Shown piece by piece: positions 47,772-50,000 of a stretch of 64,000 nucleotides of DNA. Each line of letters opens with the position of its first letter. Within the stretch, counting starts at the first letter, position 1. This DNA is from Rhodopseudomonas sp. P2A-2r. GTDB taxonomy: Bacteria > Pseudomonadota > Alphaproteobacteria > Rhizobiales > Xanthobacteraceae. The DNA lies in NCBI RefSeq assembly GCF_026015985.1, contig NZ_CP110389.1, positions 1,141,001 through 1,205,000 of the forward strand, in the 5' to 3' direction. Both the position numbers and the translations under genes were made by a program. Under the pieces are notes generated by a model, which saw nothing but the letters and a program-made list of their open reading frames with translations, did no database searches and had not been told where the DNA came from.

Positions 47772-47955
47772 GCGTGGTAACCTGCAAGACGTGGAAGCGA
47801 CTGATGAAATCGGGGATGTGGCCGCCCATCTTGATAGGGTTCGCAGGCTCTGAAAGCAAAGAAAACATTGCGCCCGCGGGCCGCCGCGGAAGACAGGGTT
47901 TACCGTGTCCGCCGCCGCTTCTTGACGGAGGGCGTGTGCAGGACTAGCTTAACTG

Positions 47956-48014
47956 TCACTTCGTGGTCATTTGAGCCGGCCGGCTTGCAGCCACGTTAAA
48001 CAACTTGCTAAACA
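47956..48014 (+). promoter_or_regulatory. SAM-II riboswitch aptamer
   Basis: The conserved SAM-II (metA) core is present almost base for base: CGTGGTCATTTGAGCCGGCC (47962-47981), then GGCTTGCAGCCACGTTAAAC (47982-48001), then AACTTGCTAAAC (48003-48014). CGTGG pairs with CCACG for P1 and the tail forms the pseudoknot. It binds S-adenosylmethionine and controls methionine genes in alphaproteobacteria; metX begins 110 bases downstream. Confidence 0.95.
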
Positions 48015-48070
48015 GGCCGGGGACACACTCAGAGTGATCCCGGCCGAACGCGTGTTCAGGCCGGGTTTTT
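48015..48070 (+). terminator. SAM-II expression platform: overlapping antiterminator and terminator hairpins
   Basis: GGCCGGG (48015-48021) can pair with CCCGGCC (48039-48045). The same CCCGGCC, extended by GAAC, can instead pair with GTTC-A-GGCCGGG (48054-48065) around loop GCGT, directly followed by TTTTT (48066-48070). The two structures exclude each other. This fits transcription attenuation of metX-metW by SAM. Confidence 0.7.
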
Positions 48071-48124
48071 ATGGCCTGAATTCCGCGGTGGTCTGCGTGA
48101 CCTTCTGAGGAGGCCAGTATCGAG

Positions 48125-49324
48125 ATGGTAAACGTCCAGGCGTTGAAGCCGGAGACGGCGCGAAACAAGGATAGCGCCCACGAGGCGGATCATCCCACCT
48201 CGCTCGTGGCGCTGTTCGGCGCCGACCAGCCGCTGCGGCTCGATTGCGGCGTCGATCTCGCGCCATTCCAGATCGCCTACCAGACCTACGGCACGCTCAA
48301 CGCCGACCGATCCAACGCCATTCTGGTCTGCCATGCGCTGACCGGCGACCAGCATGTCGGCAATCCGCATCCGGTCACCGGCAAGCCGGGCTGGTGGAAC
48401 ACCCTGCTCGGCCCGGGCAAGGCGCTCGACACCGACCGCTATTTTGTCATCTGCTCCAACGTGCTCGGCAGCTGCATGGGCACCACGGGCCCGGCCTCGA
48501 CCAATCCGGCCACCGGCAAATTGTGGGGGCTGGATTTTCCGGTCATCACCATTCCCGACATGGTGCGCGCCCAGGCCATGCTGATCGACCGGCTCGGCAT
48601 CGACACGCTGTTCGCGGTGGTCGGCGGCTCGATGGGGGGCATGCAGACGCTGCAGTGGAGCACGGCCTATCCGAAGCGGGTGTTCTCCGCGCTGGCGGTG
48701 GCCTGCAGCACGCGGCATTCGGCGCAGAACATCGCGTTCCATGAACTCGGCAGGCAGGCGGTGATGGCCGATCCGGACTGGCACGGCGGCCGCTACTTCG
48801 AGGAGGGTAGCTATCCGCACCGCGGCCTCGGCGTCGCGCGCATGGCCGCGCACATCACCTATCTGTCGGACGCCGCCCTGCACCGCAAGTTCGGTCGCCG
48901 GATGCAGGACCGCGACCTGCCGACGTTTTCGTTCGACGCCGATTTCCAGGTCGAGAGTTATCTGCGCTACCAGGGCTCGTCCTTCGTCGAGCGCTTCGAC
49001 GCCAACTCCTATCTGTATCTGACCCGCGCCATGGACTATTTCGATGTCGCCGCCGACCACAACGGCGTGCTGGCGGAAGCCTATCGCGGCACCCAGACGC
49101 GGTTCTGCGTGGTGTCGTTCACCTCCGACTGGCTGTTTCCCACCACGGAATCCCGCGCCACGGTGCATGCACTCAATGCCGGCGGCGCGCGGGTGTCGTT
49201 TGCCGAAATCGAAACCGACAAGGGCCACGACGCCTTCCTGCTCGATGTGCCGGAGTTCATCGACATCTCCCGCGCCTTCCTGGAATCCGCCGGCGCCGTG
49301 CGCGGCCTGATCGCGGAGAAGTAA
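48125..49324 (+). CDS. metX: Homoserine O-acyltransferase MetX
   Basis: 399 residues, alpha/beta hydrolase fold: [10 protein letters not shown] (oxyanion), nucleophile Ser169 in [12 protein letters not shown], and the C-terminal Asp and His ([16 protein letters not shown]). It acylates homoserine (acetyl or succinyl CoA) to start methionine synthesis. Downstream of a SAM-II riboswitch and one base before metW, which activates MetX in alphaproteobacteria. Confidence 0.95.
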
Positions 49325-49325
49325 C

Positions 49326-50000
49326 ATGGCCGCACAGCAACAGGTTCTGCCCCTGCCGGGTCTCGTCATCCCCGGCGCGCAACCGCAGCGCGGCGATCAT
49401 CTGCTGATGGCGGAAATGGTGGCGCGCGGCTCCAAGGTGCTCGACGTCGGCTGCGGCGAAGGCGATCTGCTGCAGCTGCTGGAAAGCCGCGGCATCGACG
49501 GCCGCGGCATCGAGCTGTCGCGCGAGGGCGTCAACCGCTGCGTCGCCAAGGGGCTCGCCGTGGTGCAGGGCGACGCCGACACCGACCTCGTCAACTATCC
49601 CGATGACGCCTTCGACTATGTGATCCTGTCGCAGACGCTGCAGGCCACACGGCAGCCGAAGGTGGTGCTGGAAAACCTGCTGCGCATCGGCCGGCGCGCC
49701 ATCGTGTCGTTTCCGAATTTCGGATTCTGGAAGATGCGTTTGCAGTTGCTGGTGAACGGCCAGATGCCGCGCACCGAGAACCTGCCGGCGACCTGGTACG
49801 ACACGCCGAACATCCACTTCTGCACCATCAAGGACTTCGTGCAGCTGTGCGACGAGATCAACGTCAAGATGGAGCGCGCGGTGGCGCTCGATCTCAACGG
49901 CCGTCCGCTGCGCCTCAACGCGCCGTGGTGGTTCTGGAACATGTTCGGCGAGCAGGGCGTGTTCCTGCTCAGCCGCGCCGCCAGATCCGCCGGACAATAA
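49326..50000 (+). CDS. metW: Methionine biosynthesis protein MetW
   Basis: 224 residues. Methyltransferase fold: SKVLDVGCGEGDLLQLLESR (SAM loop), GRGIELSREGVNRCVAKGLA, FDYVILSQTLQATRQPKVVL and FPNFGFWKMRLQLLVNGQMP, the MetW signature. It partners with MetX rather than acting as a known methyltransferase. The start is one base after the metX stop, so both are controlled by the upstream riboswitch. Confidence 0.95.
   Translation: MAAQQQVLPLPGLVIPGAQPQRGDHLLMAEMVARGSKVLDVGCGEGDLLQLLESRGIDGRGIELSREGVNRCVAKGLAVVQGDADTDLVNYPDDAFDYVILSQTLQATRQPKVVLENLLRIGRRAIVSFPNFGFWKMRLQLLVNGQMPRTENLPATWYDTPNIHFCTIKDFVQLCDEINVKMERAVALDLNGRPLRLNAPWWFWNMFGEQGVFLLSRAARSAGQ

Follow-up and report, generated by a model that had tools for sequence, protein, structure and literature searches.

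We propose that the leader of metX in Rhodopseudomonas sp. P2A-2r is a SAM-II riboswitch that turns expression off by transcription attenuation, a reading to which we assign a probability of a little over nine in ten. The leader lies within a stretch of 64,000 nucleotides (the window, in whose plus-strand coordinates all features are given), where the aptamer is followed by an intrinsic terminator and then by metX and metW. Four short GC-rich arms, designated 0, A, B and C, connect aptamer and terminator through complementary pairings, and the locus represents a clear and well-conserved example of a SAM-II riboswitch operating via predicted termination.

The aptamer is identified by a match to the Rfam model SAM_alpha (RF00521, SAM-II) at 47953–48032 (80.3 bits, E-value 1.1e-17, gathering threshold 36), which upholds the assignment of a SAM-II riboswitch before metX made in a preliminary description of this DNA, and it would be expected to bind SAM. 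Stem P1 is formed by CGUGGU (47962–47967) and GCCACG (47990–47995), as read from the sequence and the Rfam structure line, and its loop carries arm 0, CCGGCC (47976–47981), the 5′ strand of the P2 pseudoknot. Within SAM-II RNAs the 3′ half of P2 is the strand located directly after GCUAAA. Here, GGCCGG at 48015–48020 is complementary to arm 0, and both the sequence and the order-level covariation between arms 0 and A support these as the exact P2 strands. The same residues belong to arm A, GGCCGGG (48015–48021), which the sequence, the Rfam match and the relatives also point to as the 5′ strand of a putative antiterminator. Arm A is inside the aptamer, rather than being a downstream element that might touch it. 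The preliminary description had placed the end of the aptamer at 48014, which conflicts with an Rfam match that reaches 48032 and with the P2 strand at 48015–48020; similarly, the pairing of GGCCGG at 48015 with CCGGCC at 47976–47981 that it envisaged as a contact route is indeed possible, yet constitutes the P2 pseudoknot itself rather than a mere additional contact. The P2 pseudoknot of SAM-II is known to interface with the expression platform (PMC1273637, PMC2258182). When the segment 47880–48130 was compared with plasmid records, matches were obtained over pieces of the aptamer only, in seven records.

Upstream of the aptamer, TTGACG at 47922–47927, 40 nt before P1, is likely to represent a −35 element, since 92 of the 101 unique regions examined upstream of metX carry TTGAC 39–41 nt 5′ of P1. 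A strict sigma-70 scan of 47850–48130 returned no site, which suggests that the −10 element is weak or non-consensus.

Downstream of P2, arm B, CCCGGCC (48039–48045), can serve both as the 3′ strand of the antiterminator, by pairing with arm A, and as the 5′ strand of the terminator, by pairing with arm C, GGCCGGG (48059–48065), roles assigned from the sequence and the relatives and, for arm C, also from folding. The terminator stem is extended by four base pairs between GAAC (48046–48049) and GUUC (48054–48057), with A48058 bulged, and is followed by a tract of five U residues (48066–48070), such that the three GC-rich arms, the extension and the U5 tract all occupy the positions described previously. 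A is therefore common to P2 and A:B, B is common to A:B and B:C, and an intrinsic terminator is situated between the aptamer and metX, an arrangement consistent with attenuation in which the antiterminator and terminator hairpins exclude one another. With five residues the U tract is short, which counts against the attenuation reading. No terminator was reported by a generic scan of 47850–48130, which requires a continuous stem and a loop size of 3–8 nt and is unsuited to a bulged stem. RNAfold assigns −19.7 kcal/mol to the terminator segment and −19.8 kcal/mol to the antiterminator segment. The unconstrained fold of 47950–48075 adopts the terminator form, without A:B. For the longer read-through leader it includes A:B together with C:D, a pairing of arm C with a further arm (see below). 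The fold of 47950–48075 only mildly surpasses shuffled sequences (z −2.0; 7 of 200 shuffles are as good), and the case consequently rests on the relatives.

The genes predicted to be regulated are metX (homoserine O-acyltransferase, 48125–49324), recognised by NF001209 with 560.7 bits (cut-off 331), and metW (49326–50000), recognised by TIGR02081 with 251.6 bits (cut-off 189.5), placing the aptamer upstream of methionine biosynthesis genes as is characteristic of SAM-II. The probable Shine-Dalgarno sequence of metX, GGAGG (48109–48113), is located well outside the aptamer. This location bears on a translational switch of the kind put forward for the metX RNA from the Sargasso Sea, in which P2 stabilised by SAM would hide the Shine-Dalgarno sequence. 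Such a mechanism is the one described for the crystallised SAM-II RNA (PMC9373788, PMC10907184), but at the present locus the Shine-Dalgarno sequence lies approximately 90 nt 3′ of the P2 3′ strand (48015–48020) and forms no part of P2, and a conserved terminator with matching arms intervenes. We therefore regard direct occlusion as extremely improbable.

In the attenuation mechanism that we favour, RNA polymerase would synthesise the aptamer first. At low SAM, arm A would be free and would pair with arm B once the latter emerges, generating the antiterminator and allowing read-through into metX and metW. At high SAM, stabilisation of P2 would render A unavailable, so that B would instead be captured by C, and the resulting B:C hairpin together with the U5 tract would be predicted to end transcription at approximately position 48070. 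To follow the competing pairings as the transcript lengthens, we used ViennaRNA, which does not support pseudoknots, and imitated the SAM-bound state by blocking the P2 strands. Because the pseudoknot is beyond the program and the values move with the chosen 5′ end, the following probabilities are indications only. In the ligand-free state with P1 fixed, A:B reaches 0.99 at an RNA end of 48048, before C is made, whereas with RNA ends at 48068–48072 the two pairings are near balance (A:B 0.39–0.63, B:C 0.60–0.36); shifting the 5′ start by 2 nt downstream raises A:B near the U tract to 0.96. With the P2 strands blocked, B:C is 1.00 over RNA ends 48068–48084 and yields to C:D only in longer RNAs (B:C 0.56 at 48090 and 0.04 at 48115), beyond the decision point. 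When 94 metX leaders ending at the U tract were folded ligand-free, 75 gave a probability above 0.5 for A:B and 15 for B:C.

SAM-II aptamers are widespread among the relatives, with matches at E ≤ 0.001 in 18/18 genomes of the genus, 147/149 sampled genomes of the family and 90/121 genomes of the order sample. In a comparison from which records very close to the window may be missing, the nearest named metX loci are those of a Tardiphaga MAG (88%) and of Bradyrhizobium sp. NFR13 (87%), which makes a position of the source near Tardiphaga or Bradyrhizobium probable. From 220 loci, an aptamer could be parsed in 184 (108 before metX, 75 before a metZ-like gene and 1 before another gene) and 36 were dropped, while 89 further order-level loci, of 108 places listed, gave 77 parsed aptamers with 12 dropped. 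The removal of repeats and misplaced rows, which included one leader of another genus (Aquibium, L139) from the 169 of the near set and, from the 77 of the order-level set, two leaders that were already counted as near and one more belonging to this family, left 167 near and 74 order-level unique leaders. The near leaders comprise the best-scoring listed matches together with metX loci and are not a random draw. Along the series of metX loci L061–L140, a hand count found an aptamer by pattern in 45 of 80; those without one are mostly more distant, for example in Mesorhizobium, and some of their contigs begin at or near the gene.

A hairpin followed by a T run was detected in 166/167 near and 55/74 order-level leaders (dinucleotide shuffles, 109/1670 and 44/740). 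More specifically, a terminator whose 5′ arm is complementary to arm A over at least six contiguous pairs is present in 162/167 near and 39/74 order-level leaders, as compared with 30/1670 and 4/740 shuffles; the counts with the removed rows included were 163/169 and 41/77 (shuffles, 31/1690 and 20/770). Among the near leaders, the 93 unique ones before metX all possess such an A-complementary arm. With the same detector, 19 of the 74 order-level leaders gave no terminator and 35 of the 74 do not display the full arrangement; two that were missed, L281 and L286, have terminators with an internal loop. These counts also bear on a constitutive terminator, one that stands behind the SAM-II aptamer but acts independently of it, the arrangement suggested for S. 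meliloti metA. There is a published case of this kind (PMC9373788), and the modelled energies of terminator and antiterminator are equal at our locus; however, a 5′ terminator arm that complements the P2 3′ strand in 162/167 near leaders, and an A:B pairing that covaries at the order level, make a terminator independent of the aptamer very unlikely.

The covariation of the arms, which the preliminary description had put forward as a check, is observed at the order level and is uninformative within the family, where arms A, B and C show almost no variation and neither A:B nor B:C gives an own-versus-swapped signal; since the arms hardly vary there, evidence for covariation can come only from the more distant leaders. 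For those 55 order-level leaders in which a terminator was detected, tests of each arm against its own versus swapped partners, which ignore phylogeny save for the use of representatives and of distinct A/B pairs, yield z −9.1 for B:C, z −2.8 (p 0.001) for 0:A and a modest z −2.4 (p 0.012) for A:B, whereas the control pairing A:C in the same leaders shows no signal (z +0.86). Linked changes in all four arms are visible by eye in L281 and L286, where arm 0 reads CCGACC, arm A GGTCGG, arm B CTCCGAC and arm C GTCGG. Thus, the arms of P2, the antiterminator and the terminator change together at the order level, which supports the published inference that SAM-II in these bacteria usually acts through termination.

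Indeed, putative terminators were reported between P2 and the open reading frame in many SAM-II representatives (Corbino 2005, PMC1273637), and the legend of the alignment figure in that paper names Bradyrhizobium japonicum and Rhodopseudomonas palustris. Barrick and Breaker (2007, PMC2258182) singled out SAM-II as the only aptamer that, in alpha- and betaproteobacteria, is apparently accompanied most often by regulatory terminators, and noted that its mechanism was then not yet experimentally established. Hence, although the comparative data support attenuation at this locus, the premise of the preliminary description that being built for transcription control is an unusual design for SAM-II does not stand (PMC2258182, PMC1273637); terminators being common in alphaproteobacterial SAM-II RNAs, the kind is already known and the locus is one more member. 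With the SAM-II RNAs of Corbino (metA motif, RF00521) it shares the aptamer class, P1 and the P2 pseudoknot, the site of the terminator and the association with methionine genes, and we found no difference in aptamer or terminator design, making it another representative. The Sinorhizobium meliloti metZ riboswitch is likewise predicted to form a terminator 3′ of the aptamer on SAM binding, and an sRNA of ~100 nt, fitting termination, is more abundant in high-SAM medium (PMC9373788); the gene there is metZ, here metX, and the arm D described below belongs to the metX leaders studied here. For S. meliloti metA, by contrast, translation control is reported, with a terminator that is not predicted to respond to SAM (PMC9373788). 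The crystallised Sargasso Sea metX RNA (PDB 2QWY, cited in PMC10907184) is alike in aptamer class and gene name, and the mechanism described for it is translational (PMC9373788, PMC10907184), with a proposed direct occlusion of the ribosome-binding site, which at the present locus is outside the aptamer. In the TaRTLEt paper, the main text contains no SAM-II terms.

Shortly after the U tract, the metX leader contains an additional arm, D (GGCCTGAA, 48073–48080), which is complementary to 48055–48062 and thus overlies arm C. The motif GGCCTGA, shortly 3′ of the terminator U tract, is conserved in the metX leaders of relatives and complements the terminator 3′ arm. With 2 of the 108 metX leaders set aside because no C arm was detected in them, at least six contiguous C:D pairs are possible in 87/97 metX leaders compared with 320/1940 shuffles, whereas metZ leaders show no such excess (9/70, shuffles 180/1400). 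Covariation of C:D is thin, the 87 segments offering one compensated pair and G-U changes, with a standard pair kept, per position, in only 23 to 87 of the 87; own-versus-swapped tests give p 0.048 for 91 leaders and p 0.073 for 38 representatives. The core CAGGCCGGG is common to A and C, so that both are possible partners for D, and in the modelled leaders it pairs with them about equally often (means of 0.44 with A and 0.39 with C). In the leader of P2A-2r itself, A:B has a modelled probability of 0.99, with C:D forming as soon as D is available. It is conceivable, though we think it unlikely, that A and C swap partners between B and D, giving either A:B with C:D or A:D around B:C, and that D would thereby block the read-through RNA from refolding to the terminator or to a SAM-binding aptamer; if so, D would make the read-through decision irreversible. 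A role of D as a general latch is not supported: 12 nt past the U tract, the mean probability of A:B is 0.39 with the real D and 0.33 with shuffled sequence (94 leaders, 4 of 98 unique leaders having been dropped). Also discarded was a reading of C:D as a protein-binding inverted repeat, because the spacing between TCAGGCC and GGCCTG varies from 10 to 12 nt in the 62 of 98 leaders with both motifs, which is better accommodated by an RNA hairpin. No arm resembling D is described in the literature searched, which consisted mostly of titles and the beginnings of abstracts together with parts of PMC2704228 and PMC4448311, and a literature search for hairpins downstream of a terminator gave no match.

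Arm D also raises the question of a dual relay, in which SAM would set both termination and, through C:D and then D:E, the Shine-Dalgarno sequence of the read-through RNA, arm E being AGGCC beside the Shine-Dalgarno sequence. The modelled accessibility of the Shine-Dalgarno sequence in the P2A-2r leader would fit (0.35 in the ON and 0.17 in the OFF state), and D:E is preferred with its own over swapped partners: z is −5.6 for the 91 leaders left when 7 of 98 unique ones had been dropped by post-terminator length, and −3.2 (p 0.001) for 38 representatives. Neither of the reversed controls, D:rev(E) or rev(D):E, shows this preference. The control rc(D):E, however, also beats swapped partners (91 leaders, z −5.5; 38 representatives, p 0.013), as the palindrome GGCC would lead one to expect, and after dropping a further 5 of the 91 leaders the accessibility is higher in the ON than in the OFF state in only 42/86, with means of 0.254 and 0.276. 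With the predicted direction found in 42/86 leaders and the palindrome control significant, a translation relay through D was rejected as a conserved feature, and we judge a dual switch to be very improbable at this locus, the preferred reading remaining attenuation through arms 0, A, B and C. A Shine-Dalgarno hairpin CCTTC/GGAGG (F:E) was likewise considered, with p 0.017 for 91 leaders and 0.56 for 38 representatives in the own-versus-swapped test, and no claim is made for it.

The genome of P2A-2r contains three Rfam SAM-II matches, namely the leaders of metX and metZ and one truncated match. The metZ leader (L001) precedes a gene recognised by NF005696 (O-succinylhomoserine sulfhydrylase, 755 bits). 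The third match (48.6 bits; 1501–1576 of L003, G000:C1:3826229-3826304; L310 8237) is a fragment in which 47 nt are 94% like the metZ-leader aptamer, with the similarity stopping before the P2 3′ strand. The open reading frames listed nearby include no recognised methionine gene, and one upstream looks, by eye, helix-turn-helix-like. This match is probably a stray, non-functional copy. Beyond the terminator of the metZ-type leaders L034, L036 and L057, inspection by eye shows GTGGTC/GACCAC or GTGACC/GGTCAC repeats on either side of the Shine-Dalgarno sequence or in contact with it, which suggests a hairpin over the metZ ribosome-binding site. Finally, in one genome of the family (L181) the SAM-II leader stands before a different gene, the start of which we take to resemble MetA. 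A chorismate-mutase-like open reading frame lies divergently upstream of it, as beside metX in the window, and with this neighbour in common it may be that the gene was replaced and the leader itself stayed where it was.
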